The notes under the pieces were generated by a model that ran no database searches, was not told the origin of the DNA, and saw only the letters and a program-made list of their open reading frames with translations. Position numbers and translations under genes: made by a program. Source: Corallium rubrum (taxonomy: Eukaryota; Cnidaria; Anthozoa; Scleralcyonacea; Coralliidae). Taken from it: DNA of 64,000 nt. The stretch is from NCBI GenBank assembly GCA_964035015.1, contig OZ035997.1, positions 88,975,965-89,039,964 on the forward strand, given 5' to 3'. Below are positions 25,075 to 59,400 of the stretch, in pieces; positions within the stretch are counted from its first letter, which is position 1, and every line of letters begins with the position of its first letter.

Positions 25075-28000
25075 ATGTTGCAGCCGATATTGGAAAGTTT
25101 GAACAAAAAGAACATAATATTAGCAAGTGGTTCGCCGCGAAGGAAAGAAATTCTGACAGCATTGGTGAGTGCGATAATTGTAAAATTCTGTAGATTGGGG
25201 ATGGGACTGAATATGATTGGCTTCTTGGAAGGTCTTTAATGTAGCTTCCACGAAAGACGATGTAATGGCGTATTTGACACACTTTTGTGTGCCACACGTA
25301 AAATACATAATTTAAGAAATAAAAAACGTGTCGCGTGCGATTATCGAGTTATAATGCACGAGAGATGCGTGTAAAGCACGAGGCGATAGCCGAGTGTTTT
25401 ACTAGCTTCTCGAGTGCATTATAACTCGATAATTGCACAGCGACTAAGTTTTTTATTTCTTTTATAAAATAGTGACTTTAAATTGTCAATAAACCCAATA
25501 AAAGTAAGCAGAAAAACAGATTACCTGTCTCAGGACGAGTTTGTTACCATTTAGCGCCACGCGTGGCCCCGTATGACACGTCGGGGATTTTAGCGATGAA
25601 AATGCACTTAAAGTTGCACTGAAAACATTCTGCTGTGTTAATTACGTGATTAGACATATATCCAAGTAATTTTTGACTTTCGTTGATGATTAAATCCACA
25701 TAAAATTCATCAAAAACGACAAAATCGTCGCGAAGTATCTCGTTTGCCGTGCCGTTATGGAGTTATAATGGCACGCTTGTTTGACCCAATAGCCAATCAG
25801 AGTGCGTGTTGTCGTTCATTTACTTCCGGTTATTTTATAAATTGTTATATACCAAAGACATTTCGTTTGCCAAAGATGAAATCCTATTGGTCAAATCATG
25901 GTCACGTGTTGTTCAAGAAACTCAATGTTTCTTTCTGTCGAGGAAACATTGCATACACAATGATTATTGCATCAGATCAAGAACTTTGGACTCTTTGGGG
26001 CATTTGAAAACAAGAGCTTGTTTTGAGCTTGTGTGGTATCCAAAAGAATCAGAATCGAGTGTCAATTTCCACATATAATACAGTTTGAACTGAGTATAGT
26101 TCTATACTGACTTGATGAAACAAGTATGTTTTGGAATTCAGTATTAAAGTCCCTTTTGCTCAACCTTACCCAACCTTGACCATGTAGGTCAGTTGGTACA
26201 GTACTAGTGCACCTATCATTTATTTCCACCACCCTTGGGATGGTCAGTCCCTCGAGGATTTGAACTTAACTTTTGAAAATTTTCTCTGTCAAATTTCCCA
26301 CTCACAAGTTTAAGTCAGTTGTCAAATACCCCTACCAGGGGGCAAAAAAAATTGATCTATTAAGTGTGTGACGAGCAAGAAGTTGGCTATTTCTTCTTTG
26401 GGACGTTTCTCCATCTTTTAAAGAATCTATTTTAATATCGCAGACATTGAAGCAACGTAAGCATGTAACTAGTCTCCAGGGTCTTCTCGGTTTTAGTGCA
26501 CCATTATTAAAATATGAACCTGGGGACAAGGTTGATCAATTCCCCTGACTCTCAGTACATAATTCTTCGTCAAATGCTCTGTAAAGGTCAACTAAACCTT
26601 TTAAAGTTATATTTTCTTCTGAAAGCACTCGGGAAGAAAATCTTTGTCAAGTCCCCCATGGTTTCCCTCCCTCCCAGGGGTGGTGGAAACAAATGATAGG
26701 TGCACAGGGCCTCAGACTAGTAAACTGAAGGTTGCACAAACTCTTGGATTTGTGAAGGTCTATGCATATTAGTCCTTACAAATTCTCTCAACTCACTCTC
26801 CTGACAATGCATCAGCCTATATGTAAACACAGGCAGCCATATCTTTTTAAAGATATACCATTACAGTATATATTACATACTGTGCCATCAAGGTATCAAT
26901 TAAATTATAATACCAGCAGAATAAGAATCAAACTAATAATTCATAAAAAATGTTTGTTTCCAATTACAATTACAATTACCAAAAGTACTGTATGCCTACC
27001 AGGTGTGGCACTAGGAATTCCCCAGCACAAGGGCTAAGGTCCCTGACAGGGGGGCTAGTAGGGGGGTAGGGGTATCCTCTCTCTGAAAAATTTTAAAAAA
27101 TTGAATGTCTAGAATGCCTTTTCCTGTCTTCTCAGTGTGAAATTATTGCAGTAACCAACAAGCTATGTACAGCATTTATTTTTAAGGTATCAATAAGGGA
27201 AAATCTGTTGAATGGATGTACCTAGTGGTGGGTGATTAACTTTGCCATCTTTTTGTCCAATTTTGAATTCAGAAAATGACATTTTGTGTGTTATAATTAT
27301 TATCACTATCACTTTTGGCTTCTACACAACATATACTGTATACCTTATTCTGTGTTTCTACAGGAGTTTTATTTCACTATTACTGTAAAGCATTAATTAC
27401 TACTGACTTGTCTGGCTTTATCAGTTAAAAGTTCTTTGCCAATTGATTTTTTCTTCCAGATCATTGAATGATTCACCAACAAAATTGGTAAATTTCCCTA
27501 ATGGGGTGGGGATGGGGGAGAGTTAGGGTTCACTGACAGAGGGGTGAGCTAGGGTTCACTGACAGGGGGCTGTAGCCCCCCCCCCCCCTGCCCCCTTGCA
27601 CCTTCTTCACCATCTGCACCTTTACCATTTGCACATCATCTGCACCATCTACACCATCTGTACCAGCTGCACTATCTGCACTTTCTGCATTATTGGCACC
27701 ACCAGCACCTGCATTATTTGCACTTTCTTTACCGTCCGCACCATCAGCACCTTCTTTGCCATAACATCATCGCACCTTCTTCACCATCTGCATCTTCTTT
27801 ACCATCTGCACAATCCACACCATCCTCATCGTCTGCACCTTTCCATTTGCATCTTCTTTACCATCTGCACAATCCACGTCATCTGCACCTTCACCATCTG
27901 CACCTTCTTTACCATCTGCACCATCTGCACCTTCTTTACCATCTGCACCATCTGCACCATCTGCACCATCTGCACGGCCTTCTTTACCATCTGCACCATC

Positions 28001-41265: not shown

Positions 41266-44200
41266 GGAACATATTCTGCCCCCCCCCACCAAAAAAAGTG
41301 TGGGGGGGCAGGCCCCCCCGGCCCCCCTGCTTCCGACGCCCCTGTCTCCTTGTTGTGTTTACATGAAGAAGATTGAAAGTTTCCGATCTGATCGAAACGG
41401 ATGATTTGAAGTCAGTCCATGACGTTGAGTGGATTCAGTGACTTGGGATTCAAGTCGTTGAATGTCTCCAATCTGATTCATCTAAACACTGTTTGACTTG
41501 AAAATGACTTGATACGCATGAGTGAAGTTGGTACGTGTCGTGCTAAATGGCAGACATTGGGGGAAGTACAGAAAATAGTGTTCCAAAACCGAAAACAATG
41601 TTCCGAGCAATTCGGATTCTCATGTATTGACTTCACTGGCGTTTTTCGATACGATTGGACTGTCAATCCGCTTCATGTAAACAGGCCCTTATAGTTGACA
41701 ATATATTATAATGTAATTTGGGTTCTTCGTTTTTAAGGGCATAAAATATACTTCAGTCCCATCATCATTCGAGGAACATCGAGACAAGTCTTTCAAGACC
41801 ATGTTTAGCGAACCTAGTGAATATGCGAAGGAAACGGCGACACGAAAAGCTATGGATGTGTACAGCAAAGTTCAACAAGTAGGTGGAATATTCTCTCAAT
41901 CTCTCTGGAGATAATTCTTGTATACTATAGGCTACAGTAAAATATTGGGAATAATGACTATATAATCAGTGCATTTCTCCAAATTTCTTTAATCTTTAAG
42001 GCACAATATATAGTAACACCAATTACTGTGCCCCCAAGATATATAAAGGCGGTGGTAGTTCAAAGTTACAAGTACACAAAAAAGAGAAAAAGATTTTAGA
42101 AAATTAAAGTGAATTGGATTAAAAACAACAATGGGGCACTTAATTTAAGAGGCGCGAGTTTTATTTTTGTGTAATATAAATTCCGTTTTCCAAGTTCTGT
42201 AGTCGTCAACGTCATATAGGTGTTTTTTAAGGCGTCAGTATTGTAGTATGAATTTACGAGCTGTCTTGAAACGAAGAGTTTGCTTTTCCAATGTTAAATC
42301 GCTTCGTAAGATGTTCCATAGTTTAGCTAGCTCATATAACTGAATATACTGTTTTGATAAGTGGTACTTGTAGTTCTGCACTTAGCTACCTCCTGCCATT
42401 GTTTGTGCTGCTACGTGTACGTTTTACTGCAACGTAAAAGGCTGCACTGGGCAAACGTGGTGGCCGGAGGTAGTGGAACGCGCATTATGCACCAGGTATA
42501 TAGTATATGGTTTATGATGGTTGTATAAACTATTTCAATAGAGTATGATCTAAAAGCGTGTTGATGTGACATCCCAGGGTGTTTGAAAAAGTAGTCCAGG
42601 GCGCCGCCATCTTGGATTTGACGTATACGCTAATCTAATCCACTAGCAGATTTCCAGTAATTCGAACATTTTAACTAAAACTAAACTACAGAATGCTAAA
42701 CCCTAAAAAAAAAAAGAGCACGACCTATAATTCAGGAGTATTCCGAATTGTGAAATGGCTTAGAATTCAGAATAATTCTGAATTATAAACGGAGCAACTA
42801 GGAACGAAGCAACTCTCTTTATTTCCTTCAGTTGGGGATCCCTTTACATGGCATGGTTGCCATTTGGCAACTTATTATACTTTTACTCCGGCTAACGCCA
42901 GACGATATTACTCGTCAAGTGGAGACCTCCTGGTAATCTGCTGGGCAAAGCCTTAAAGTGCACCTAACTCCTAAAATGAAATTTGTTTTTCTGGGAAGGG
43001 TGTTAAAAATTGTGAACGATGGGACAGTTTCATTGTGTTTGTTCTTCCACGCTTGACATTTGATATCTCATATCTGTTCTGCTAAACCGTCCCATGTAGT
43101 GGTCGACTCATTTAAAGCACGAGCAGTAGTGTTTTATCAGATTTAAAACCACGAGGGCGCAGCCCGAGTGTTTTAGATCTGATAAAACACGTGATGCGAG
43201 TGTTTTGAATGGCTTAAAAAACGATTCGTTATTGGATGTTATGTTAGTATTTTTTATTTAAGAAATAAAAAACGTGTCGCATGCGATTATCGAGTTATAA
43301 TGCACGAGAGATGGGTGTAAAGCACGAGGCGATAGCCGAGTGTTTTACTAGCGTCTCCAATGCATTATAACTCGATAATCGCACAGCGACTAAGTTTTTT
43401 ATTTCTTTTATAAAATAATGACTTTAAATTGTCAATAAACCCTAGAAAAGTAAGCAAAAAAACAGATTACCTTTCTCAGGACGAATTTGTTACCATTTAG
43501 CGCCACGCGTGGCCTCGTACAACACGTCGGCGATTTTAGCCATGAAAATGCACTTAAAGTTGCACTGAAAACATTGTGCTGTGTTAATTACGTGATTAGA
43601 CATATATCCAAGTAATTTTTTACTTTCGTTGATAATTAAATCCACATAAATTTCATCAGAAACGACAAAATCGTCGCGAAGTATCTCGTGTGCCGTGCCG
43701 TTATGGAGTTATAATGGCACGCTTGTTTGACTCAATAGCCAATCAGAGTGCGTGTTGTCGTTCATTTACTTCCGGTTATTTTATAAATAAAATTGTATGT
43801 TCATTAGTATTCTTTATATAAAATTGTATGTTCATTAATATTCTTTCTGACGTCAAGAAGTTTTATCGGGCCGCATAAAACATTGACATGGTACTGATTT
43901 CCTTTGTGTTTTTCTCGTGAATTATTAATGAGTTTTTGAATTAATAGTTGAGTCGGTTTTCTTTGTCCCTTCTACAGTGTGTATTAAGAAAAAACCTGGA
44001 ACCCTTTTTAATTAGTATTCTGTTCAAACAACCTATTGTAGTGGTTTACACCTCTGCATGAGCCTGGGAAATTAAGATAACGTGAAGTGTATGCATGGTG
44101 AAAATATTTAAAAGTTTTTTCTCTTCCTGTTTAACTTATGTGCTGATTAATTTATAACGCAGCGCTTTTAAAAAGAATACTAATTCATTTTTTAAGGGTT

Positions 44201-47200
44201 CCGGGTTTTTTTTATACTCTGTACAGTAATTATATGTTTTTCCGAAACCCTCCTCAACTATTAAATAAGTCAGTTAATTACTCGATCCTCAGCTTGACTA
44301 AAAGCCTCGGTTCTCGGTAATTAACTCTTACATAACGCGAATGAGCTGTTCTTCCGTCCAAAAGCTCTGTATCACACAATCTTAACAGTGACTTTTCTTC
44401 TTTAAAAGACAAGTCAGCCAGATTTGGTTGTTGCCGTGGACACAGTTGTTGTAAGTACATACTTTATAATATTAAGGCGGCGAAGTTTGTCACGTGTTCT
44501 TAAAGTTGCGGGTGGATATAAAATTACGCACAACAGGCATTATATATGGAGGCTCGAACATAGGCTCACATTCCAGCCGTTGGGTCTCGGTGCGCCCGCG
44601 ATCCTTCGCCCTGCCAACGCCTGATATATCACAAGGCGTGTGTGTAGAACATGTGATTTTAAACCACAATCTTTGTTCTAATACATGTTTCTCTTGTGAG
44701 AACCGTTGCGAGAACCGTGGACAGAACAGTCGCACAACAGGGGAGCATTTTGACTATTAAACTCTCATATTTCCTTGCTGAATTTTGCACAGAAACAGTT
44801 TGGCCTACTATAATACTGCTTTAGCTTTTTTAGATTTAAAGTACGGTCCTTAGTTGCTTGTAACGGCATTTTTTTACAATATAAAAAATAGCTTTTCAGA
44901 CAATCAGTGACAAAATACCTTGGGAAACCTCGCATTGTTGGTACTTACCCAAGATTGCTTTCAATTTCTTTCGTAATAAAGTGTATCCCTCCCTCCCCCT
45001 CTCTATTCAATGTTGAATTTAAAGTAAGGAAGTCAGTAAACGTTGAACAGGGGTGCCGGGCGATATTTAGAATGGAAATAATGTCGTTTAGGTTGTAGTG
45101 TCCCAACACTTTTGTCACTGATTGTAGTTTGTTTTTGTTAGCAACAAAAAATGTAGTGAATTCAAATTCGTTTTTCTTCAATCATTCACTGTTTTTAATT
45201 ACTAGGAATGTTAATAACTAACTTTAATAACTACTTTTGCCACAATAGACCTTATCAAATATGGTGGACACTTTATAATTCTTTCATGTGCATATAAATT
45301 AGCCTTAATTATGACTTTATTTTAAAATAAAAAAATATTTTGAAATTGAGTTTATGAGGGATACTAGAAATACATGATCGCAACAACCCCTCGCCCACTT
45401 TTAATATATACATTTTTGTAAACCACCCCCACCACCATACACACACTTTCTGGTTTTGGTTGGGGTTTTTTTTGTATTTAAGTCTACCTGTATTATAGTT
45501 TTTATATTTAGTCTATGTAATAATAAAATTAACAGCCTGAAAAATTTTGAATAGAAAGAGAGAAACAAACCAGTAAAACATCAAAGAAAATTCATTGGCA
45601 AAGTTCACCCGGCTGTAGTCATGTACTGTAGTATTAAGTATTGACACACTGAAAGAGCATACAATGTCAATATTAAAAAAGAAACCATAGCCCTAAACTA
45701 AGACTATAGTCCTATAAGTCTAAGACTGTAGTCGTAAGACTAAATTTATAAGACTATAGTCCTAAGACTAAATTTATAAGACTATAGTCCTAAGACTAAA
45801 TTTATAAGACTATAGTCCTAAGACCAAATTTATAAGACTATAGTCCTAAGACTAAATTTATAAGACTATAGTCCTAAGACTAAATTTATAAGACTATAGT
45901 CCTAAGACTAAATTTATAAGACTATAGTCCTACGGCTAAATTTATAAGACTATAGTCCTAAGACTATAAAATTTATGAGACTATAGTCCTAAAACTAAAT
46001 TTATAAGACTATAGTCCAAAGGCTATAGTCCTTAAGACTAAGACTATATAATTATAGTCCTAAGACTAAGATTATAGTCCTAAGGCTATAGTCCTAATAC
46101 TAAGATTATAGTCCTAAGACTATAGTCCTAAGACTAAGATTATAGTCCTAAGACTATAGTCCTAACAACGAGATGAACCAAATAACAAATTTTCATTCAA
46201 AATAGATAATAGTGGCCAAGAAAAGACACAAGGCCACGTCCTAGCGTCCAAAGACAACTGTAGACAACAATATTATTTTATATATTGCATGATTTTCTTT
46301 TTCAAGACTCAGCTAAACTGGTAAATATGAATCTCCTACCGTTAAACTTTCTTCTGCTTTTGTCACCACAAACACTGCCAATTCAGTCTATACTCTTTTC
46401 AGAATTCATATTGTTTTTCTTGTTCGGTTTCTTTCGGTTTCTCCGTGACCAGGCATGATTCAGTTCTCTTCAATATCTAAAAAGCCGTTTGTTTCAAACT
46501 GATTTCTTCATCCTTCTCCCTCGAGTTAAGTAGAATACACCAGAGCAGATTTATTTACAGGCTTCGGCCAGTTTCAGGACACAGTGTAGTTTTCGGTCTA
46601 CCAGTAACCCTGCTATTCGAATTCCAAACTGCGAAAGTTGCGGATTTGTTGACATATATATATATATATAAACATCTCGCAGAATTTCTTTCCCATTTGC
46701 TGTAATTTCGCGTGTACTCCACGCGTGTCGAGATTAGCACCCTCACCGGGCTCCGGGCCTTCGGCCCGTCGCCCGGCTCGGGGAATATATATGTGTGTAA
46801 AATAATACCAAATCAGACTTGACGAGACCGCGTAGAAGACTGGAACTTACGTACTTCAGGCCCAAAAGGATCGCGGGCTCTGGGAACAAGATTGCCGCAA
46901 AGATATCATTCCAGTTATATATAGAGCTCACTGGGCTTGTCAGTCCTGTTAGAAAGATAGCGATTTCGTTCTTTTTAAGAGGGGTAATCTATAATTATCT
47001 ATTTACTCGTTTCTGTGCGGAGTCTCCCAAAGAGAAATATAATCGAAGTTTCTTATTGTTCTCATTTTCTTGGATCGTCAGTTTTTAGATAATAAGATAA
47101 TCGAGAAGCCAACAGACGAAGACGATGCATGTCGGATTTTAAAAAGGTTAGACATGGAGGGCAATTGGATTATTAATTGTCGAGATATTAAGACAATGTC

Positions 47201-47964: not shown

Positions 47965-50900
47965 TTTTCTTACTTTAGTTTGAGTGGAAAGACTCATTCT
48001 GTACATAGCGGAGTGGCCTTGCTTAGACCTAACCCAAGCGGCTCCGAAAAAGGTATGTTGCGCATTTTTTACTGCCACACTGGCGTATCAGTAAATCTCT
48101 GTTTCCCTTTATGTAGTATATGTGCCCATAATAATGAAAAGATAACACGCTGAAATAATTAAGCATTCCATGCCTAAATGTCTTTGTGTTAACTAACTTG
48201 GTTTGAAATGCTAACAATGTGTTAATATATAACTACCGAGGTTTTTGGTAACGGAAAACTGATGTTTCGATAGTTAAATGTGCCGGTTATATAACTACTT
48301 TATATGTATATACACGTAAAAATCTCACAGGCGTGTTAAAGGTCTTTTTAAGCAAGTTGATAAACATATTGTACTGTTTGTTTCATAAAGTTAATGTTAC
48401 AATTTTTCTAACGGCAAACTTGTAACACGTTGTCTTGGTGCACAAATGTGTAAATCATGGCGCGTATATTTGAGATTTGAAGGAGCAACTTGAACACGCC
48501 GACGGAGCTAGGAACATCATTAAATCTACATGTTTCAACATGCCAGAACCAGTGAATTCCATTCTCCATATCTGAAACAGTCCAACTTCGGTCACTAGCA
48601 CGCTTTAAAAATGAAGTCAGGATTTTTATGAATCACGTCGGGTTCTGTTCTCTACGCCGTCTGTTACCCGCTTTGACCGCGTAGGAAGCAGTTTGTCGGA
48701 AGGCTGAACTGAGGAGACGTAATATAGCTGACTTTACGTTGTGCAGTTGGCGTTCCAATTATGAGAATTAAGTTCACTGGCCGAAACATATACTGCATGG
48801 CAGTCCACCATTTGGCTTCGAACATCAACTTGACACAACTGTATATGTAAAAAAAAGTCGAGTGCTACGTAGGCAATTTTTTGGATAGAGCAAAGTGAAA
48901 AGGTGGTAAACTGCCGAGATTTCGACATTAACGAAATACTGACATTTCGAGCGGAGCTCTTTATTAGAGCCTTTCAGGAGTGGAACACATGACTTAAAAT
49001 AATCTATATTTAAACACGTCGTGAACAATTTATAATTAGAGAATAGAGAGCTTACGCACGCACGACTTCATCCGAGGACGTCGCCTCTTACACAGGAAGT
49101 GACGTAAAAAATTTAACCGAGCATGCGTCGTCGTTGACTTGAAGGCGTCCTTCGGCCGTCGACTGCTCGAAGAAGCTGTTTTCGAAGGCGTCGACAATAC
49201 TGGTACGTATTTTTACAATTTTATGTTAGATATCATTCAAAATAAACATTTTTTTTGAATTAATACTGGTTGTAGTTAGAAATACTCCGTTTCTTTGACT
49301 TGTAGCATCATTCGAGTCCTTGGACTGAACAGCGCTGAACTAAATTCATAAAATTATCTATTATGGCAACAAATAGCTCGACAAATAGTACAAGCACAAG
49401 GAAGTAAGTATTTATTTTCTTTTGTGTTTAAACCGTAGGGTGGTTGAAGTACTCTCAACATTCTGCGTTATCCAATTCGGGCCTAGGTCAAACGTATTAT
49501 GATAATGAGCTAAAGTCTTTGTTTATGAATGAAGTGTTTACACTTTTGAAACCACATTTAAAGATAGAAATACAAACCAGGCTGCTTTGAAACCTTCTTA
49601 TATATTGTAATACCAAAGGTTTATATTGTACTGTATGTATTTGCTGTTTGTTATCAAATTTATTGTCAATTGAGTGAGAATTTTTAAAGAACGAGATGGT
49701 TGTGTGTGCGAGTTGTACTTAATATAAATTCTTAAATTTTCTGTAATTTAACCCTGATATACAAATGGTGAAGGTGGATGAGTATTGTACCTCTTGCTTT
49801 TTAATTTAATTTGTTACTAATATATTTATTTTTTATTACAGTACACCCATGAAATGGACTGAGCAGCATGATGTAATGCTGTGCAGAGAGATTTTGCTCA
49901 TACAACCTCATAAATATCGCCTAAAATCAACAGAAAGGGGTAATGCATGGACAAGCATTGCAAATGATCTTAATGCGATTCAGGAATTGCGGTTTACAGT
50001 GACCCAGAAGGCTGTAAGAGATCGGTTTAAGCTTTTGATTGCACGTTTCAAAAGGAAAACAAATGAAGAAGAAGCTGCTAGTGGAATTTGTCCAGAGGAA
50101 TCTGAGCTGGATCAGGCACTTGAGACTATAGTTGAATTGATGGGTGAAGCTGAGCAGCAGTATGACAAGGATTCTTACGAAAAGCAAAAAAAGTTGGAAA
50201 CTGATAGGAAGAATGCTGAAACTCAGGACTAAGGCAATGGAAACCTTTGGGGAGAGCAGAAAAAGACAATCTGATACTGAGGAAAGCCAAGCTTCAAATA
50301 ATAGGAAAAAGAGAGCAACTGGTGGAGAAACATTGGTATACTTACAGAACAAAGCTGAACAAGAATTTGAGACTCGGAAGGCTGAACTAGAATGTAAAAA
50401 AAAGGAAATGGAGGGCAATAAAGAAGCTGAGCTTTCCATGCAGAAACAGCAACAACAGCAGTTTATGGAGTTTCAGAAAACAATGATGGAACAATGTCAA
50501 CATCAACAAGCCATGATGCAGCAGCAAATGCAGCAACAGGCTCTTCGTCACCAGCAGATGATGGCAAACCAAGCACAGCAACAACAACAAAATAATCAAC
50601 TTTTATTAGTCCTTCTTGAAAAACTTACAAAAAGTTAACACTGAACATTTTAAAACATTCTTAGTTTACAGTTAAACATTTTTAAAACTTACTTGTTCAT
50701 GTTTATACTTCAGTTGCCAAGTTTATAATTTAAAATGTTGAAACTAGTGAAGGGCAGTCGATATGTTTACAAAAAAATACAAACATTTTACAGACTTGTT
50801 TAGGTTTAAATTACAGTTTCAATCTATGTAAAGTACTCATTAAGTGATGGTGGGTTTAAATTAAAATATTCTGAAGTTACGGAACCATAAAGACATGTGC

Positions 50901-53900
50901 GAGCATTTGTGAGCAATGAACAAACAATGTACATCTTACCTACTGCACTTAAGTGAATCTTCAGATTTTTTCTAAAATCTAAAAACTTAAAAAAGTTCAC
51001 AATATCTCCAAATACCCACTCCACACTGACTCTTGCAGCACTCATTGCCCTGTTGTATGCAATTTGTTCGTCCGTAAGTCTAACTGCTCTAAATGGAGCT
51101 TGAAGTTGGGGTCTTAGAGGATATGCTGGGTCACCATAAATGCATAGTAAATCTCCTGTAGGCGAATAGCTGTAGTTTTCCAAGTTTGCTAACAAACCTG
51201 ATGCTGCTAGCATTCCACTGTCATGTTTTTTCCTTTCATAGGGCCCTGATAAGTTTGCAATTAAGCCATTGGGAATTACAACTGATTGAAACTTTATTGA
51301 ATGAATTCTTTTGTGCCCATTGTACAAAATTCCTGTTGCCTACCAGGTCTGCATATAGGTCTGACTGTTCCATCTACAAAGCCCCAGCAGTTCTCCAAAG
51401 GAGTGCCAGCTTGATGAATTACTTCAGCATAACTTAATAAATTGGCGGGGGAAAGCAGTGGTTGCATAAAGCTTGTGAGACGATGACCATGCCTTTCATA
51501 GATAAGATTCATAACATGGGTTGTAATAATACTGTACTGTGGTACAGGTCTGCCAAACCTAGGAATCATGTCACTGTATCTAATAGGGTATGGAAAACGC
51601 TTTAAAAGAATACATAGAGCTTCTATTCCATCCACTACCAGCCTGTTATAGCACTTTATTTCCTCAGGAATACCGAGCATCTCTTGTAAATTGTATATGT
51701 CGCTCTTAAGAAAGCGAAATTCTGCTTTGCATTCAGCATCCCTCATTTTGTCCAAGTCAAAGCTGTCATAACTCCAATAAGGAAAATCTGGATTTTTCGA
51801 TGTGTTCAAGTCGTACAGGAGAAGAAATTCTTCGTCGTCAATAATTTTTAGATCGTGACAAAGAAGCAAACAATCTCTTATCTTTCTTAATTTCGGCATA
51901 TAGATAACAAAAAATAGGCACGCAATGCGTACATGCGTCTACGTTTAGGGCTACATGCACCAGGAGGAAAATTGAGTCCAGTTAATCAGATTATGTGAAT
52001 GGGCCTTTGGTTGCAATAATCCTCAAAGACACTGACAGGCAGTGTAAATGTGTAAATGTGTAATTAATATAACAGAGGACATAGCAATATACCAAATCAG
52101 GAAATAGCCAATTTAATTTGCTAAAATATATATTAAGAACTTTTCAGAATGTTTGTTGATATTTGACTAGTTTAGCATGAGAATGTTCTACTATGTGTAT
52201 ACACATGCAGAAATAATACTATCATAATAAGTTACATACTGGTTACATCCTGTCTGCATATCATTGCAGTCAACAACAGAGACAGATTGTTTGCCCTCAC
52301 TGAAACTCGCAGATTTTTGACCTCGGTCAATTACATAAACAATGGATCCAGGATTTTCCTCAATGTTAGTTACATTCCTCAGTAATAATGCAACATACGT
52401 ACACGATATATAACAGACATTTGGACTGCAACCTTCTAATGACTGGTTAGGTGCTCTAACCATTCAGAGGGTCAGATGGAGAGCTACAATAAGGTTGCAA
52501 ATTCAAATTCATAGTCATAGCATTCCTAACTGGTAGCGTTTGCATATGAGATGTAGTTAAAGTGATCTGATGAGTTGTACATGTACATATACATGCAGTG
52601 GATGTGGTACATTTACGAGCTTAAACGTACTGCATGTGTATACTACACACACTTCACTTAATAAATGAAGTTTGTTTAGTTTGAGTTATGCGATAATTCA
52701 CTACACAGATAACGTCTGATCAGAATGTCACCACTAACACATTGGTCCCTGTGCAACAACTGTCACAAGCTATGAACACATGTCAGTCAATATTTCTAAA
52801 ACAGAAAACAAAAAAATCGGTCATTTAGGGAAGAATACTGTATATAGAAGTATCTATGAAGCAAAAAGTGTTATTAATAATAATCGTGGTAGGAGCATTT
52901 ACTAAGAGTTTAATATTTGATTCCATTTTTGAAGAAATGGATCGCTTGGTTGGACTGCTTTATAGCATATACAGTTGTACATTTAATAAAATATAAGCTT
53001 ACAGTACAGTGTATACTATTTTGACGCATATTAATGCGACAATGGCTTTTAGAGTATTAAAATCCCATAAAATGAATCAGGGTGTCATTTCTATATTTAT
53101 TTTTGGAACTATAAACTGTTTTGTCTGTAACTGTCGGGCTTCAATACAGTAACATTGAGGACAAAATGCCTTGAGTTAAAAGTAAAACAACTGCAAAAAG
53201 ATATTTCCTTTTAAACAACTATTTCATGAGTCTGATGATATTGATATATACAACCTAAAAGATAGCCCAGTACAACAGGCAATTTACATCACGTTTCCAC
53301 AAGTTCCATAGAGATTAACGTTAATCAATGATGTGACACAATATAAGTTATAATTACTTCCTTACCTTGATAAAATCTCCCTGAAATCAAAAGAAACAAC
53401 TCGTTTTCAATGACTCAATCGGTCGCAAACAGATGGACGAAGCAATGAAGCAGAAAGCACTCGACGCCATATTCACTAAATCACATTACACACATAGCTA
53501 CATCGGAAAACATCGGCACACCTTCGCTTATGTTGGCTATGTAATTCGCTCCGAACGTTTCGCGCGCCGATGAATCTGATAGAGGAAAACCTATTACGTC
53601 ACAAAAGTGACAATACACAGCCAGACGGTCAGATAGGTTTTTACGGGTACATAACGTCTACGTTGCTATAGCAACGTAGACGCAAAAATGGAAAATCTAA
53701 GAGAGCAAAGAACTTCTCACTGGCGACGGCGTCCTGTTTCCCACCGCTTTCGAATCGATTTGCATAACAATCGATTCAAAAGCGGCGGGAAACACGACGC
53801 CGTCGTCAGTGATGACGTAATTAAGACGGCGTCGTCCAAGAAAGTCTTGAGTGCGTAAACTCTCTACTTACGATGTACGACGGCAACTTCAACGACGACG

Positions 53901-54487: not shown

Positions 54488-57242
54488 GTGGCGTACGTCA
54501 AGTACGAAATATTCCTGACTCGAGCATTCCACGGCATAATGCCGGAGTTTTATAAAGAAGGAGGCAACATTGTGGTAAGAGTCCCGAATATATCGTACTT
54601 GACGTACGCCGGAGTTTTCTAAAGAACGAGGCAACACTGTGATATACCTGTGGCATCATACCGTGTAATCCTCGATCGAATCGTGTAATCCTCGAATTTT
54701 ATAACGAACGAGGCATGTCGACCTTCTGTATCATGTGATATCGATCCGTGACCATCCGAATGCAGATGTCACGGTCCGTACGATACGTACCATCTGAACT
54801 ATCCTGGAATATCTGAGACGAACGTATATATTTACTAAGTGTCTACCATCTGTACCACGTGATGTCGGTCCGTGACTATCGGAATACAGATGGTATGGTA
54901 CGGTACGGTACGATCTGCAACGCCCTTTTACCGATCGTTACGATCCGTCATCCGATGCCTATGTTGGACATGTGAAGAAGATTGAAAGTTTTCGATCTGA
55001 TCGAAACGAATGGCTGAAGTCAATCTACGCAGATTCAAGCAAGGATCGACTTGAATGTCTACAATCTGATTTATCGAAACACGGTTTACTTGAAAATGAC
55101 TTGATACGCTTGAGTGAAGTTAGTGCGTGTCGTGCTAAATGGCAGACATTGAGGGAAGCAAAGAAAATAGTGTTCCAATGTGCCCGGATTGACGTTTTTC
55201 GGTCGGATTGGACTGTCAATTTGCTTCATGTAAACAGGGCCTAAGGCTCAGCTGCCCCCACAGGCCGGTCAATTCAGTAATAAATTCCTTAATGAGAAAA
55301 AGGTCGGCGGTTGCTATTATGGGACAAAATTGGACAAATGACTCATAAACCGCCATCTTGAATTGTTCACCTATTGTCAGGGTAGAAGTAAGTGACGTAT
55401 TGAACTATATACTGCGCATATCTAACCTCTTCCTATTGTCAGTCATTGATATATTGGAGATCTTTCTTTTCTTCTTGCAGGAGAATACGTAATTCACCAG
55501 TTCCACGAGGTCACAAAAGTCACATTCGGTTCTTTAACAGACGAAATTATTAAGATGTATGTTGCGACCAAAGAACCCTTGTAAGTCATTTTAAGTTACG
55601 ATTATGTATATACAGTATAATGGTACAGTGTGAGCGACTGAAGTGTATGGGGATTTACAAGGTGAGCTGAAGGCAAGCCGTTGTAAATGCCACACAGTTT
55701 GGTCGCGAATATTGTATCTTGCTTAAACTATATACGGATGCATCTAAATAACCATGTTTACTGATTATTTTGAAAATTCAAGTCATTTTATCTGAGTAAA
55801 TTGAAGGAAATTGTTTATGCAAACTATAAGACGATGTTGTATCCGATTTACAGCGTACTAATCAGGACTCGTTTCTTTTGTCTTTTCTTCATTCAATGAT
55901 ATTTTAACCTCAGATAACTGGACATGAAGAGATTACTTTATGATTTTTCGAAGTCAACTCGAGTAGGGTTTGAACTCGACGTTTGGGATACGGGTCCGCG
56001 CAATTCTTTCTTTTTTTACATTTCAAACTTATTAACAATTCATGAGATAATCAGGTATAATTACTTATACAATCGTTCATTCAATCACCTGATTGAAGTT
56101 GGGTACTCCAGTAAAACACCTCAAAATCATATACCACCCAAGATATTAGATGAAAACCATACACTGTTCATCTAATTCTTAAGATCTCAATAGGCGAGTT
56201 TCAGGGTGTTGCGCGCGCATCATTTTTCAAAAAAACTGGCAAGCTCCACTCAAAGTAAACATACTGTTTAAAATAAACAAAGTGTAGATACAGTTTCTGG
56301 ATATAAAACATTGTTATTCTGCTGTTGTTGGCTCGCTAGCAAGTCTGTTTGCCATTCCTTACTTTGTGGGGAGCCGGCCAAGAGCCCGCCAATTCCTTTC
56401 CAAAACGATGCGCACGCAACACCCTGAGACTCGTCTATAATCTATATGTGCAAGATCAACAAGTTGGTGTATAAATAAGTTCTACACACCCGCAATCGCA
56501 TTTCATCTCATCTCATGTTATTTTATTATTATTTTAGAGACAAGGCTGGTGGATATCCTTTTATTCTATGTAACAAACACACAATAGTATTATGTAATAT
56601 ACGTAATTATAATTACACGTAATATACATGCACAAACATGTGGGCAAGCCTAAGAAATCCGGGGGGTAATCATCCGTAGTAGCATCGGTGACTGCATGGA
56701 TTGCTGAGGTTGCAGATCAACGTTGCCTAGTAGTAGACGTATCAGAGCGCCCTTAGGCAGCCATCACACGACACATGTCAGACCACTATCGAGCTAAGAT
56801 TTTTTTAGAGAGAGAGGAAAATTAATTGGAGAACTTGGCGAAAAGCCTTCGAAGCACAGGAGAGACCAACTACAATAACCTTATGTATATATATATAGGG
56901 ACGTTATTACCGAGCTTAAGAACGCGGGATTATTCCCAGGAGGTCAGCAATACAAGTACTAACCTCAGGCTTTACTTTGGATTGCAGCGGTACGAGACAG
57001 CGCACTAACAGCACCCGCCACCCGTGCTTCCCACAAACATACTAACATGTTGTTTAGTTGTATCATTTATGCATAAACTGCCCGGTGATGATCCTTAATC
57101 ATTTCTTATATATGGCATACAGTCAACAAGTCTTGGTGGTACTCTGGTAAAGAGCATATCTGGAGATTACTTTAATGTTATTGGGTTTCCTCTTCATCGA
57201 TTCTGTGTAGAAATGCAAACGATATTTAATACAAAGACTTGA
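25075..57242 (+). CDS. Maf/ASMTL-type nucleoside triphosphate pyrophosphatase, 8 exons
   Basis: Exons: 25075-25164, 41738-41878, 44409-44450, 47082-47146, 47979-48052, 55481-55580, 56538-56552 and 57110-57242. They total 660 nt, giving 219 residues plus TGA, and all phases match. Maf enzymes hydrolyse dTTP, UTP or modified NTPs to the monophosphate, a house-cleaning role in the cytosol. Visible family motifs are the phosphate-binding LASGSPRR (16-23), EYAKETATRKA, VVAVDTVV (84-91; the family consensus is GADT, with the catalytic Asp kept as D88), IIEKP, LSGKTHSVHSG and DKAGGYGIQ (172-179). The length fits a stand-alone Maf; there is no methyltransferase domain. Introns are swollen by transposons (intron 1 is 16.6 kb, intron 5 is 7.4 kb). 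Exon 7 has 15 nt, and the intron after it looks U12-type. The model rests on splice-site reading. Confidence 0.9.
25316..25842. mobile_element. ~525-bp hairpin-type element, copy 1
   Basis: A near-identical copy lies at 43256-43790. It begins 'aagaaataaaaaacgtgtcg', followed by a hairpin (25328-25445) closing on the core 'gcacgaggcgatagccgagt' (from 25377). It ends 'agccaatcagagtgcgtgtt' then 'ttccggttattttataaa'. It lies just inside Maf intron 1. There is no coding capacity. Confidence 0.8.
26190..26725. repeat. Element with inverted ends 'ctagtgcacctatcattt'
   Basis: 'actagtgcacctatcattta' followed by 'tttccaccacccttggga' (26203-26240) recurs inverted at about 26655-26715 ('cccaggggtggtggaaacaa', 'atgataggtgcacagg'). 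The left copy is preceded by 'aggtcagttggtacag', which resembles a tRNA A-box, so the arms could be a tRNA-derived SINE pair. No B-box of good quality was found. Confidence 0.45.
27596..28345. repeat. CTGCACCATCTGCACCTTC tandem repeat
   Basis: Interspersed 9-bp modules (ctgcaccat, ctgcacctt, ctttaccat) make a 750-bp array with no stop in several frames. On the minus strand (28153-27767) the repeat reads as Gly-X-Y triplets (GADGADGKEG repeated), superficially collagen-like. It lacks proline at X or Y, a signal peptide and flanking domains, so it is best treated as a repeat. Confidence 0.85.
28650..28850. repeat. Diverged copy of the 36721-37030 MITE
   Basis: It shares 'tctggaaactcagctaaa', 'ttgttcgcctttatgcattt' and 'gtattttagtataatgaacg' with the intact element at 36721-37030. 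The right end is lost. Confidence 0.6.
28851..30109. other. Maf intron 1 sequence, no gene seen
   Basis: There is a 134-codon minus-strand frame (30052-29648) without recognisable domains. Part of it ('aaaaggatcgcagggtctgg', minus-strand sense shifted) resembles a phrase near 46.86 kb, so it is probably an old repeat. Confidence 0.4.
30110..30310. repeat. Degraded hairpin element
   Basis: 'acaattattggatgagagtt', 'tcaagaattatcgagg' and 'tgtgttatctgccgaagccg' match the intact hairpin at 60340-60490. The right arm here is diverged. Confidence 0.55.
30460..30690. repeat. (GAT)n microsatellite
   Basis: Interrupted GAT/GAC triplets over about 230 bp. The poly-Met, poly-Ile and poly-His frames are artefacts. 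Confidence 0.95.
31146..32370 (+). pseudogene. cGAS-like/Mab-21 protein, copy A (frameshifted)
   Basis: This is a close tandem duplicate of the intact gene at 34337. It keeps the nucleotidyltransferase motif ATGSPEEG, the acidic pair in ILEGDFM and the third acid in VQVDTVP, then SSWPDQLQYQQW and WRLSFSKV. Against copy B it lacks two bases ('GA' of 'acagagaatc') near 32025, so the first frame ends at 32051 and the Mab-21 C-terminal half continues in another frame. Homology to copy B stops abruptly at 32370, where a reverse-transcriptase fragment begins. Copy A has about 20 N-terminal residues (around AGNVSEVQAKCKSVTPGI) that are missing from copy B, so neither is a simple derivative of the other. 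Confidence 0.85.
32371..32709 (+). pseudogene. LINE reverse-transcriptase fragment fused to copy A
   Basis: Immediately after the copy A homology, in frame with its Mab-21 tail, come about 110 residues of the N-terminal part of a non-LTR reverse transcriptase. Landmarks are VAIILNSSYQEQKLPPDCK, NVTPVPKESP, LRPISLTPVISKIAED and QFGVIPRSSATQALI, matching the RT block 'W K.A.V.PI.K....RPISL......K..E'. It ends before the catalytic FADD region. Confidence 0.75.
32813..32883. mobile_element. Tiny pogo/Tigger-like MITE
   Basis: Ends CACTGGAACCCCG and CGGGGTTCCACTG (one mismatch at the terminal CACTGG/CAGTGG) lie within TA dinucleotides on both sides. CAGTGGAACC-type termini with TA duplication are characteristic of pogo-like elements. 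Length is 71 bp. Confidence 0.6.
33231..33305. repeat. (TA)n microsatellite
   Basis: About 37 TA dinucleotides immediately precede the second copy of the cGAS-like duplicated segment. Confidence 0.97.
33326..35536 (+). repeat. Segmental duplication, copy B (partner 30826-32370)
   Basis: Homology between the two copies starts upstream of the genes ('acttgcatttcaactttgta') and runs through 'aataacttcaataaactgt' and 'cttcaagtcacgcttcatg' into the coding regions. It ends at 'cctcgaactttaga.(a/g)acgag'. Copy B carries an extra segment of about 600 bp between 33606 and 34240 that includes a MITE. The duplicated unit is about 1.55 kb. Confidence 0.8.
33789..34230. mobile_element. TTAA-ended MITE in the copy B upstream region
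   Basis: The terminal inverted repeats TTAAAGTACCTATGAAACGA and TCGTTTCATAGGCACTTTAA continue for about 60 bp per arm ('aaagaacacttaaagtgaca', 'gagtaac'). The element (442 bp) is absent from the corresponding position of copy A. TTAA at both borders fits a piggyBac-type target, although the tetramer could also be part of the terminal repeat. Confidence 0.75.
34337..35623 (+). CDS. cGAS-like receptor / Mab-21 domain nucleotidyltransferase, copy B (intact)
   Basis: A single 428-codon exon. By alignment with copy A the start may be the internal ATG at 34352. The N-terminal nucleotidyltransferase fold shows AAGSLEEGAWL (GS at 54-55), the metal-binding pair E76 and D78 in ILEGDFM, and the third acid D208 in IDTVPCIELSSWP. 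The helical half has WRLSFSKVEML, MPSYFCKTTMLWLMEEE and LPNFFYPSINLLDGYPEEL, typical of Mab-21/cGAS. All three catalytic acids are present, so it may be an active enzyme. Members of this family in animals sense nucleic acids and make cyclic dinucleotides for STING. A cGAS-type zinc ribbon is not visible. It is nested in intron 1 of Maf, on the same strand. Function and ligand are inferred. Confidence 0.85.
   Translation: MSFVWMDKIHSIIRKLCKTDSLISNELKSIIECRTTIRLSARMGLWFDQTFAAGSLEEGAWLAKCFRLDDVVHILEGDFMAPIGRIEDATIREKLEPIGNSPGFFMLTTNDLLQSMNDDIRNRYHNWIKTDPKNQTKDVCRSSVPEFIASQWSTSKRFEKSCEFIADILLQRDEPSKAEVMFTTDGPSALTVIKMKSAEAVLGEVQIDTVPCIELSSWPDQLQYQQWVNRKRKWPNPQLVLQSQHLLSIVAKAPPKVENEIEASNVWRLSFSKVEMLYSSTYTENQQNIYYLFKIMFYANIKKFESGGKTMPSYFCKTTMLWLMEEEGDGFGEVDFEEAIKMLFQKLNEFLKNGSLPNFFYPSINLLDGYPEELIAICSYMIKELIENPLHYVPRTLDDECEFLEIANERFKRFELLMEMKKIIFKRD
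35824..36530. other. Flank 3' of the cGAS-like gene
   Basis: AT-rich with a short (AAT)n stretch near 36070-36113. No further exon seen. A polyadenylation-type signal was not pinned down. Confidence 0.4.
36533..36668 (+). pseudogene. Third, relic copy of the cGAS-like gene (136 bp)
   Basis: The sequence closely matches copy A from 'aatgtatccga.gttca' through 'taactccaggaattggtctt' and 'catttgcaactggtagt' to 'gctttcgacttgatga'. It covers the segment with the GS motif but has a TGA straight after it ('aaagaatgagcg'), then loses homology. It includes the stretch that copy B lacks, so it derives from a copy A-like ancestor. Confidence 0.8.
36721..37030. mobile_element. MITE with ~38-bp terminal inverted repeats
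   Basis: The ends 'catagtcaatcgagatatgg' + 'tctggaaactcagc' and the complementary 'gccgagtttccagaccatat' + 'ctcgattgactatg' bound 310 bp with no ORF. Diverged relatives lie at about 28.65 and 23.75 kb. Confidence 0.8.
37800..39345 (+). mobile_element. Degraded Penelope-like element
   Basis: A Penelope C-terminal coding remnant (38575-39064) is flanked by two weakly similar direct segments: about 37810-37930 ('aaattgaagaatgtctatat', 'tcgtgtgagggaga') and about 39210-39320 ('aaatttaagaatgtctgctc', 'gtgcgagggacgg'). Direct terminal repeats around the ORF are usual in Penelope elements. The outer borders are approximate. Confidence 0.45.
38575..39064 (+). pseudogene. Penelope-like RT/GIY-YIG C-terminal fragment
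   Basis: The first part (38575-38763) ends in LPFKDQKSARVVKRQLSDL, the linker typical between RT and endonuclease of Penelope elements. After a frameshift near 38755, the second frame (38711-39064) gives the GIY-YIG endonuclease module: CVVYHFKCDQCDAGYVGYT, CRHLYQRVDEHK, IVGRHAKEAHG and FDCLVFEMLFIKDMNS. The RT domain itself is missing, so this is a broken 5'-truncated copy. Confidence 0.8.
39402..40653 (-). mobile_element. hAT transposon copy (1252 bp) with exact 8-bp target duplication
   Basis: The terminal inverted repeats CAGGGCCGGCGCGAGC and GGTCGCGCCGGCCCTG bound the element. The 8-bp direct repeat TGTTACAC lies immediately outside (39394-39401 and 40654-40661). The interior encodes the C-terminal part of a hAT transposase on the minus strand. 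A G/C-rich subterminal block (40600-40640) resembles that of the hAT MITEs nearby. It is inserted in a repeat containing 'aaggccctgttacacgtag'. Confidence 0.9.
39798..40541 (-). pseudogene. hAT transposase C-terminal region (ZMYM1-like), broken
   Basis: Three minus-strand segments join across two frameshifts (near 40200 and 40020). First comes MEKFDFFFGLSLGARILKHA...LSTTLQMKDLSACEAQEIAD...LPRRRKAPRKN (40541 to about 40205), then YHEEEKPHVRIEECLCTHLE...LTPAKKALMGEVIKLVKLL, then the hAT dimerisation motif PATNASSERAFSTLTYIKNY with LNNLMVLYVYKNRLD. The order and motifs match the hAT family C-terminus. The N-terminal zinc finger and the first catalytic regions are absent, so the element is non-autonomous. 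Confidence 0.85.
40852..41693. mobile_element. MITE interrupted by a younger hAT MITE
   Basis: The left end 'ctctgtttaaataaagcgga' + 'ttga' and right end 'tcaatccgcttcatgtaaac' + 'aggccc' are inverted repeats. The interior after the insertion ('gaagaagattgaaagtttcc', 'gatctgatcgaaacg', 'cgtgtcgtgctaaatggcag') matches the repeat at 54971-55245. A hAT MITE splits it at 40914-41344. Confidence 0.65.
40914..41344. mobile_element. hAT MITE with exact 8-bp target duplication
   Basis: The ends CAGGGGCGTCGGAGC and GCTTCCGACGCCCCTG are flanked by the perfect direct repeat TCTCCTTG (40906-40913 and 41345-41352). The interior has G/C homopolymer runs, (GT)n and the 'gtccgggggcatgctccccc' / 'gtctctgaaatgccatttcc' phrase that identifies the dispersed family seen six times in this window. 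Confidence 0.9.
43109..43211. repeat. Hairpin element with CACGAGGGC/GCCCGAGTG core
   Basis: The arms 'catttaaagcacgagcagta' and 'gtgatgcgagtgttttgaat', with inner 'gtgttttatcaga' / 'tctgataaaacac', close on the core 'ccacgagggcgcagcccgag' (from 43149). Confidence 0.7.
43256..43790. mobile_element. ~530-bp hairpin-type element, copy 2
   Basis: Near-identical to 25316-25842 over its full length, with scattered substitutions ('tcgcatgcg' for 'tcgcgtgcg', 'gatgggtg' for 'gatgcgtg'). The core 'gcacgaggcgatagccgagt' starts at 43322. It lies in Maf intron 2 beside another hairpin (43109-43211). The high similarity suggests recent mobility. Confidence 0.8.
45690..46166 (+). repeat. 28-bp minisatellite in Maf intron 3
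   Basis: About ten near-perfect copies of a 28-bp unit (TAAGACTATAGTCCTAAGAC + TAAATTTA), then shorter 15-21-bp derivatives lacking the 'aaattta' part. The unit contains the perfect palindrome GACTATAGTC. Confidence 0.93.
47265..47880 (+). repeat. Pyrimidine-only tandem repeat filling Maf intron 4
   Basis: 'catcccatcccatcc' units grade into a perfect 10-bp repeat (TCCCCTCCCT) for about 370 bp, then 'ccccttcccct' variants. The coding strand is almost pure C/T over about 450 bp, and the intron (47147-47978) is little else. Long proline/serine-rich frames here are artefacts. A (TA)n tract follows at 47931-47962. Confidence 0.95.
48735..49025 (-). repeat. Degraded Penelope terminal-repeat-like segment
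   Basis: On the minus strand it carries 'cctgaaaggctctaataaag', 'ctccgctcgaaatgtc' and, further on, 'caaaaaattgcctacgtagc'. This resembles the hammerhead-containing segment at 4.5 kb but with a damaged core. Confidence 0.35.
49363..50638 (+). pseudogene. Harbinger Myb/SANT-like accessory protein (frameshifted)
   Basis: Exon 1, 49363-49403, encodes MATNSSTNSTSTR and splits its last codon at a GTAAGT donor. Exon 2 starts at 49842 after 'tttttattacag' and continues NTPMKWTEQHDVMLCREIL, a trihelix/Myb-like DNA-binding domain (to about residue 75), then an acidic linker. One base too many (or two too few) near 50225 ('gctgaaactcagg') breaks the frame: the first frame ends at 50232. The expected continuation LRTKAMETFGESRKRQ...KKRATGGETLVYLQNKAEQE is in the next frame to 50638. 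The tail is a Gln-rich coiled coil. This protein normally brings the transposase to the nucleus and the element's ends. Confidence 0.85.
50824..51899 (-). pseudogene. Harbinger DDE transposase (one frameshift)
   Basis: The minus-strand frame from 51899 (MPKLRKIRDCLLLCHDLK) runs about 200 codons to GFVDGTVRPICRPGRQQEF. A single indel near 51325 then shifts to the frame YNGHKRIHSIKFQSVVIPNG ... LCIYGDPAYPL ... SVEWVFGDIVNFF, ending at 50824. The catalytic triad is all present: first D in GFVDGT, second D in YGDPAYPL, E in VEWVFG. Total would be about 365 residues, full length for the family. Apart from the indel it looks young. Confidence 0.9.
52191..52463 (-). pseudogene. 90-codon frame with a 2A-like NIEENPGS motif
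   Basis: It lies upstream of the transposase in the same orientation, inside the Harbinger ends. It reads ...YVALLLRNVTNIEENPGSIVYVIDRGQKS. The hydrophobic run followed by (D/N)IEENPG(P) resembles 2A peptides that precede proteins in some marine invertebrate retroelements and receptors. Here the invariant Asp is Asn and the final Pro is Ser, so ribosome skipping is not expected. It may be a passenger fragment or an older insertion. No conserved domain was recognised downstream. Confidence 0.35.
53662..53675. promoter_or_regulatory. Perfect palindromic X-box-like (RFX) site
   Basis: GTTGCTATAGCAAC, centred in a 28-bp perfect palindrome (CGTCTACGTTGCTATAGCAA + CGTAGACG), matches the RFX X-box consensus form GTTGCYATRGCAAC. 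It lies about 190 bp from the Harbinger right end, upstream of the minus-strand transposase. Binding is inferred. Confidence 0.4.
53717..53806. repeat. Subterminal hairpin of the Harbinger element
   Basis: The arms 'actggcgacggcgtcctgtt' + 'tcccaccgcttt' and the complementary 'aaagcggcgggaaacacgac' + 'gccgtcgtcagt' are separated by a GAATCGATT...AATCGATTC inner stem. The arms are about 42 bp. Confidence 0.75.
54132..54970. mobile_element. Foldback element with (TA)n centre
   Basis: The ends 'tgtccaacattggcattgga' + 'tgacggatcgtaacgatcgg' and 'ccgatcgttacgatccgtca' + 'tccgatgcctatgttggaca' are inverted. Inward, 'acttgacgtacgccggattt' / 'ggcgtacgtcaagtacg' and 'ccatctgtattcggatggtc' pairs are also repeated. 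A (TA)n run (54437-54484) sits in the middle. It abuts the next repeat directly. Confidence 0.75.
54971..55245 (+). repeat. Dispersed repeat (partner inside 40852-41693)
   Basis: 'gaagaagattgaaagttttc', 'ttgaaaatgacttgatacgc' and 'cgtgtcgtgctaaatggcag' through 'catgtaaacagggcc' match 41365-41690. The 90-codon frame here is closed by many stops in the other copy, so it is not a conserved protein. Confidence 0.7.
56553..57109 (+). other. U12-type (minor spliceosome) intron of the Maf gene, AT-AT termini
   Basis: The 5' end ATATCCTTTT is a perfect match to the U12 donor consensus (RTATCCTTT). The branch-site consensus appears as TCCTTAAT at 57092-57099, with its A at 57098 lying 12 nt before the exon, in the window used by U12 introns. 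Only this junction restores the conserved DKAGGYGIQ motif across exons 7 and 8. The intron then ends in AT instead of AC or AG. The next AC (57119-57120) would delete YGIQ and shift the frame. Confidence 0.75.
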
Positions 57243-58627: not shown

Positions 58628-59400
58628 GAAATGAGAAAACTTGGGTGGAGTGGGCAAACTTGGGTGGAGTAGGCAAATTTGGGTGCAAGAGTAGGCAAAC
58701 TTGGGTGGAGAGTGGGCAAACTTGGGTGGAGAGTGGGCAAACTTGGGTGGAGTGGGCAAACTTGGGTGGAGAGTGGGCAAACTCGGGTGGAGTTGGCAAA
58801 CTTGGGTGGAGTGGCAAACTTGGGTGGAGAGTGGGCAAATTTGGGTGGAGTGGCAAACTTGGGTGGAGAGTGGGCAAACATGGGTGGAGCAGGCAAACTC
58901 GGGTGGAGTGGGCAAATTTGGGTGGAGTGGGCAAACTTGGGTGCAAGAGTAGGCAAACTCGGGTGGAGTAGGCAAACTCAGGTGGAGAGTGCGCAAACTT
59001 GGGTGGAGAGTGGGCAAACTTGGGTGGAGTAGGCAAACTCGGGTGGAGAGTGGGCAAACTTGGGTGGAGTAGGCAAACTCGGGTGGAGAGTGGGCAAACT
59101 TGGGTGGAGTAGGCAAACTCGGGTGGAGTAGGCAAACTCAGGTGGAGAGCGGGCAAACTTGGGTGGAGTAGGCAAACTTGGGTGGAGAGTGAGCAAACTT
59201 GGGTGGAGTAGGAAAACTTGGGTGGAGTGGTCAAACTCGGGTGGAGTTGGCAAACTTGGGTGGAGTGGGCAAACTCGGGTGGAGTTGACAAACTTGGGTG
59301 GAGTTGGCAAACTTGGGTGGAGTAGGAAAACTTGGGTGGAGTGGGCAAAGTCGGGTGGAGTGGACAAACTCGGGTGGAGTGGGCAAACTTGGGTGGGGTG
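58628..59400 (+). repeat. ~19-21-bp minisatellite (AAACTTGGGTGGAGTGGGC)
   Basis: About 38 units in 0.77 kb, with 'gagagtgggc', 'gtaggc' and 'caagagtaggc' variants. It is open in several frames on both strands, so Pro/Ser-rich and Trp/Gly-rich frames are artefacts. It is flanked by a 56-60-bp direct repeat (58501-58560 and 59513-59568). Confidence 0.95.

Follow-up and report, generated by a model that had tools for sequence, protein, structure and literature searches.

A probable U12-dependent intron with AT-AT termini in the Maf nucleotide pyrophosphatase gene of Corallium rubrum

The closest described counterparts of the intron reported here are the A-type (AT-AN) U12-dependent introns of the AT-AT subtype, as treated in passages of PMC8280824 and PMC10639083. 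In a pan-eukaryotic survey, AT-AT ranked second among the non-canonical minor termini of animals; such introns are rare but already described, and they constitute no new class. In the portion of PMC3584512 drawn on here, the optimum branch-to-acceptor distance of U12-type introns is given as 11-13 nt, and efficiency at non-canonical minor termini is described as often reduced, which counts against the reading preferred below. Further points of reference were the AT-AC U12 intron in D1S1 of voltage-gated Ca/Na channels (PMC6259924) and the Maf/ASMTL nucleotide pyrophosphatases (PF02545; PDB 2P5X). The terms 'ASMTL' and 'minor intron' occurred together in no paper in a literature search.

The window, a stretch of 64,000 nt from the C. 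rubrum assembly GCA_964035015.1, contains an intact Maf gene of eight exons on the + strand (25075-57242; Table 1), which form one continuous open frame encoding a product of 219 aa that matches Maf over its full length (Pfam Maf, E 7.7e-57). Inspection of the protein by eye identified the signature residues as well as the YhdE-subfamily motif R-T-Q. The product ends after the Maf domain, whereas ASMTL runs on into a methyltransferase (according to the PDB title), and compared with Maf homologs it has two additional residues after YGIQ, which weighs against the preferred reading. From sequence, the gene is judged, with a probability of roughly 85%, to be functional and to encode a YhdE/ASMTL-type dTTP/UTP pyrophosphatase, its last intron being A-type (AT-AN) and U12-dependent with an AT 3' end.

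Table 1. Coordinates of features of the Maf gene, with predicted splice signals and further in-frame acceptors
Feature	Position	Strand	Description
Exon 1	25075..25164	+	ATG start; ILASGSPRRKEIL
Exon 2	41738..41878	+	
Exon 3	44409..44450	+	DLVVAVDTVV; by-eye alignment with catalytic Asp region
Exon 4	47082..47146	+	IIEKPTDEDDA
Exon 5	47979..48052	+	LSGKTHSVHSGVAL
Exon 6	55481..55580	+	Phase 2 at its end
Intron 6	55581..56537	+	GT-AG, GTAAGT ... ATTTTAG, major type
Exon 7	56538..56552	+	15 nt, AGACAAGGCTGGTGG, source of DKAGG; phase 2 at both ends
Intron 7	56553..57109	+	557 nt, U12-type, AT-AT termini, phase 2
U12-type donor, intron 7	56553..56562	+	ATATCCTTTT
U12-type branch site, intron 7	57092..57099	+	TCCTTAAT, branch A 57098; pairing with U12 element
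AT 3' terminus, intron 7	57108..57109	+	11 nt past branch A
Exon 8	57110..57242	+	Begins A-TATGGCATACAG (YGIQ); TGA at end
In-frame AC	57126..57127	+	Would give AT-AC intron, exon from 57128; YGIQST would be lost; 29 nt from branch A
In-frame AG	57129..57130	+	Would give AT-AG intron, exon from 57131; YGIQSTS would be lost; 32 nt from branch A

Introns 1-6 are all GT-AG. Intron 7 is very probably excised by the minor spliceosome at its AT acceptor, judging from signals that it shares with the AT-AT subtype: a full-consensus AT donor, a U12 branch site, a short branch-to-exon distance (11 nt lie between branch A and exon 8, which starts at 57110) and the AT 3' end; the intron here sits in a Maf gene. 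An order-2 Markov model built on the window gives a chance of about 1.2e-7 (8.5e-7 over seven introns) for RTATCCTT at one fixed place together with TYCTTRAY at the right distance. An exon-intron repeat allows five equivalent placements of the intron with identical mRNA, and only 56553 gives ATATCC at intron +1. The assembly shows no enrichment of the exact donor, which occurs at 1549 places whereas the reversed pattern occurs at 2134; this counts against the preferred reading. The original prediction that a Maf gene contains a U12-type AT-AT intron is supported in its coordinates, donor, branch site, AT end and phase-2 junction, as is its description of a 15-nt exon preceded by an ordinary GT-AG intron; its view of the AT 3' end as an unusual substrate was right as to rarity and otherwise overstated, since AT ends are established for minor introns.

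No cut other than that before 57110 places YGIQ, the conserved base-pocket motif, immediately after DKAGG. Across this junction, DKAG[GAS]-YGIQ is gap-free in Maf homologs (4 PDB alignments listed of 8 matched sequences, and two bacterial homologs). Exon starts at 57098, 57101, 57104 and 57107 would keep YGIQ with one to four added residues, from introns ending in TA, TC, TT or CT. A single C-to-T change separates intron 7 from a textbook AT-AC intron, and the AT end may have been derived from AC in this way. It is improbable that the true site is AT-AC, with C at 57109 in most alleles and the T due to a minor allele or to an error in sequencing or assembly. Base 57109 is known from one assembly, where no second Maf copy was found for comparison (all 6 matches to the protein at E 10 or better were exons of this gene), and it lies within a short AT repeat (TTATATATGG), a context that favours some kinds of error; but only a base substitution could account for an erroneous T here, the site is no homopolymer, the assembly is long-contig (C1 of 96 Mb), and introns of the AT-AT class are known from nature.

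The original prediction had taken the AT acceptor as the only in-frame join, which holds for direct joining of DKAGG to YGIQ and overlooked the further in-frame AC (before 57128) and AG (before 57131). Both keep the frame, and 3' splice-site choice in U12-type introns is described as error-prone in the cited part of PMC3584512. That the minor spliceosome takes either of them, for a main or alternative product without YGIQ, is nonetheless highly unlikely: they lie well beyond the optimum distance given there, AT-AG combinations are termed disfavoured in the same source, the conserved motif would be lost, the bases just 5' of these acceptors code for YGIQ exactly, and an out-of-frame AC (57119-57120, 22 nt) and AG (57121-57122, 24 nt) come first. 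Skipping of exon 7 or retention of intron 7, with little full-length product or a gene turning into a pseudogene, is scarcely credible: skipping preserves the frame because exon 7 has phase 2 at both ends, and basal retention of A-type introns is relatively high (abstract of PMC8280824), but all eight exons are open and match Maf full-length, skipping loses DKAGG and retention leads to an early stop.

The same assembly carries the conserved D1S1 minor intron of Cav, which has the donor ATATCCTTTT and phase 2 in common with Maf intron 7 and differs in its branch site (CCCTTGAC) and in its AC end, 10 nt from branch A; its junction gives a gap-free match to Cav, and both AG ends within 12 nt lead to a stop. 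Four copies of U12 snRNA, one of U6atac and two exon matches to the CENATAC family (PF14968), a factor for AT-AN minor introns, were found in the assembly, each with no match in 14 control genomes. The proposed check for minor-spliceosome snRNAs succeeded for U12 and, with an odd element, for U6atac; U11 gave no match to its Rfam model in the assembly, a point against the preferred reading, though not evidence of absence. Unexpectedly, the only U6atac gene found has GCC in place of AAG at positions 12-14, which lie in its 5' splice-site pairing element, although both donors examined (Maf intron 7 and Cav) are canonical. Its best duplex with the Maf donor has a shifted register and an energy of -4.1 kcal/mol, while the consensus element reaches -6.8; this weaker pairing counts against U12-dependent splicing of intron 7.

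In the proposed mechanism, the 15-nt exon 7 and the major-type intron upstream of it would probably be defined together, and U11/U12 would recognise the donor and branch site of intron 7. The A-type reaction would be supported by the U4atac/U6atac.U5 tri-snRNP with CENATAC, which presumably acts on this intron. We infer from the sequence that splicing uses the AT at 57108-57109, so that the second step would cut 11 nt from branch A and join DKAGG to YGIQ. The Ile and Gln of YGIQ correspond to Ile152 and Gln153 of BSU28050 (Gln position recounted), which are proposed to bond the base in the part of PMC3899018 cited here; the AT cut would restore both of these residues proposed for base recognition.

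The Maf gene was rebuilt manually on the plus strand from reading frames, splice signals, and homology, and is complete, encoding 219 amino acids followed by TGA with consistent phases throughout. Introns 1-6 all have GT-AG borders. In a Pfam search, PF02545 covered residues 13-212 of the product (E 7.7e-57), and among the eight PDB sequences matched the closest solved relative was the Maf domain of human ASMTL (2P5X, E 1.4e-51). The PF02545 match, together with the S-R-E-K-D-K signature and the R-T-Q residues read by eye on the PDB alignment, places the protein in the YhdE subfamily. A scan of prokaryotes for Maf relatives returned two loci, which are informative for conservation only. A retrocopy or second haplotype that could serve as proof of the junction was sought in the assembly and none was found, all six matches being exons of the Maf gene itself. 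Intron 5 contains, at window 49810-51938, two sets of long ORFs in opposite orientations, which judged by eye may represent a DNA-transposon transposase together with a Myb/SANT-like partner; immediately downstream of the gene, at about 58630-59400, a CAAACTTGGGTGGAG-like unit is repeated in a long array.

Coordinates of the Maf gene features (window numbering) and of the minor-spliceosome snRNA genes located in the host assembly
Feature	Location	Strand	Remarks
Maf exons 1-8	25075-25164, 41738-41878, 44409-44450, 47082-47146, 47979-48052, 55481-55580, 56538-56552, 57110-57242	+	manual rebuild
Maf intron 7	56553-57109	+	557 nt; U12-type signals, predicted AT-AT ends
U12 genes	L009-L012, C1:81.806-81.809 Mb		four copies in tandem over about 3.2 kb
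U6atac gene	L024:1501-1628 = C25:6502880-6503007		only one found; element altered, promoter and rest apparently intact

The extended U12 donor that the original prediction had placed at 56553 was borne out, since the sequence there, ATATCCTTTT, fits RTATCCTT. The branch site TCCTTAAT at 57092-57099 agrees with TCCTTRAY at the expected spacing to the 3' end (about 11-13 nt), and 11 nt separate the branch A from exon 8; a branch-to-3'-end distance of 11-13 nt is described as optimal in PMC3584512. Counting both strands, the window contains eight exact copies of RTATCCTT and six of TCCTTAAY, and one of each brackets exactly intron 7. A Markov estimate puts the probability of such a pair at fixed places at about 1.2e-7, rising to 8.5e-7 when seven introns are allowed for. 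Where DKAGG meets YGIQ, neither the four displayed PDB alignments nor two bacterial homologs have a gap. An ATAT repeat at both borders of the intron permits five placements with identical mRNA, among which the one picked out by the putative donor's consensus is AT-AT, and the conserved DKAGG-YGIQ motif and the reading frame would require the spliced intron to begin and end with AT.

Alternative acceptors were evaluated by scanning every exon start from 57086 to 57179. The claim that only the AT acceptor joins DKAGG to YGIQ in frame stood for the direct join, which is given by 57110 alone, and failed in its wider form, as other in-frame starts exist. An in-frame AC before 57128 and an in-frame AG before 57131 would delete YGIQST and YGIQSTS, respectively, and their distances from the branch A are 29 and 32 nt; the AT-AG combination is moreover listed as disfavoured in PMC3584512, which also describes non-canonical minor termini as often reduced in efficiency. 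With exon starts at 57098, 57101, 57104, and 57107, YGIQ is preserved and one to four residues are added, and the introns so defined do not end in AC, AG, or AT. The nearest downstream AC (before 57121), 22 nt from the branch A, shifts the frame. In Bacillus Maf, Ile 152 and Gln 153 of the YGIQ-equivalent motif (the position of the latter obtained by recount) have been proposed to bond the base (PMC3899018). Because the alternative in-frame AC and AG ends remove this motif, the reading of intron 7 predicted to preserve enzyme function is AT-AT. Relative to the homologs shown, the protein has two extra codons after YGIQ, within 57123-57131; this stretch, downstream of the AT end, also holds the in-frame AC and AG acceptors.

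Components of the minor spliceosome were searched for in the host assembly (474 Mb, 312 contigs), which contains the window; only the best candidates were scored, so that copy counts for the snRNAs and CENATAC are lower bounds. Of the two snRNAs whose presence was to accompany the intron, U12 was recovered with at least four matches over the cut-off (91.5-108.6 bits), and U11 gave no match at E 0.001 in the model search, a result that, according to the warning issued by the tool, does not imply absence. The branch-pairing element GAGUAAGGAAAA is present in both of the U12 copies displayed (of four), and the four genes have in common a CCCACAAT element at -58. For CENATAC (CCDC84; PF14968), at least two exon matches, located at C1:39.80 Mb, exceeded the cut-off. 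U11, U12, U4atac, and U6atac have all been reported in Hydractinia (PMC11067881).

U6atac was found with at least one match (109.6 bits), in which the 5' splice-site element is changed. The first 29 positions equal the Rfam consensus except at 12-14, where AAG is replaced by GCC (AAAGGA to AGCCGA); the stem formed by 53-56/61-64 carries paired changes at 53/64 and 55/62, and upstream of the gene are a CCCACAAT element (-64) and a TATAAA (-31). At about 1209-1400 of the same region, upstream, is a degenerate tandem copy of gene and promoter with the same element also altered. Suppressor assays have shown base pairing between U6atac positions G14 and G15 and nucleotides C5 and C6 of the 5' splice site (PMC4980772). 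The best predicted duplex of the altered RNA with the Maf donor lies in a shifted register, at -4.1 kcal/mol compared with -6.8 kcal/mol when the consensus element is used. Despite the alteration, ATATCCTTTT is retained in the two A-type donors examined (Maf and Cav). A canonical U6atac gene may be either absent from the assembly or missed by the searches: the canonical 29-mer with up to three mismatches matched the altered gene alone, the 20-mer gave 48 matches with up to three mismatches vs 67 in the control and none with fewer than two, and three regions (L024, L066, and L067) held no additional full copy. It is improbable that the altered RNA is the sole working U6atac and that minor introns, the AT-AT one in Maf included, are spliced without the standard helix between U6atac and the 5' splice site. 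If confirmed, the alteration would bear directly on recognition of minor 5' splice sites during activation.

The D1S1 minor intron of Cav and Nav channel genes, which according to PMC6259924 is conserved across animals, cnidarians among them, was used as a positive control from the same genome, and was identified in one of seven channel regions. Its donor is ATATCCTTTT, in phase 2, and its branch site CCCTTGAC is followed at 10 nt by an AC end; the two AG ends no more than 12 nt from the branch A each lead to a stop. With an E-value limit of 0.01, the joined peptide matched 18 PDB sequences, calcium channels on top, and it aligned to Cav2.2 without a gap across the junction (single alignment shown). 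A second channel gene (region L074, about 776-810, on C49) has in its D1S1 intron a U12-like branch site, TCCTTAAT, 13 nt upstream of a CAG end, and the 776 nt available contain no donor. The D1S1 exon was not identified in the remaining five regions, for which motif lists and the final 130 codons per frame were inspected. Exact ATATCCTTTT occurs at 1549 places in the assembly vs 2134 for the reversed pattern. Forty regions were drawn from the first 42 of 100 listed places among these 1549, eight being inspected closely, and no minor intron was confirmed among the 40; 13 have some TYCTTRAY with AC soon after, with coding status established for none. The clearest coding exon of the survey (SH3-like by eye) was rejected as a minor intron donor, its own frame running through.

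The AT-AN class of minor introns is already established as a subtype, and CENATAC promotes it (PMC8280824); a 5' A can splice to any 3' nucleotide according to the summary of mutational work in PMC4176328, and U2- and U12-type introns are known to engage in exon definition with one another (PMC3584512). Maf intron 7 would therefore be, its neighboring 15-nt exon notwithstanding, a further example within the known AT-AN/AT-AT class. Predictors restricted to GT-AG, GC-AG, and AT-AC would probably miss or misplace its junction. On the sequence evidence, intron 7 appears to be a well-supported natural AT-AT minor intron, adjoining a 15-nt exon, in which the choice of 3' end would determine whether the base-recognition motif of the enzyme is retained.
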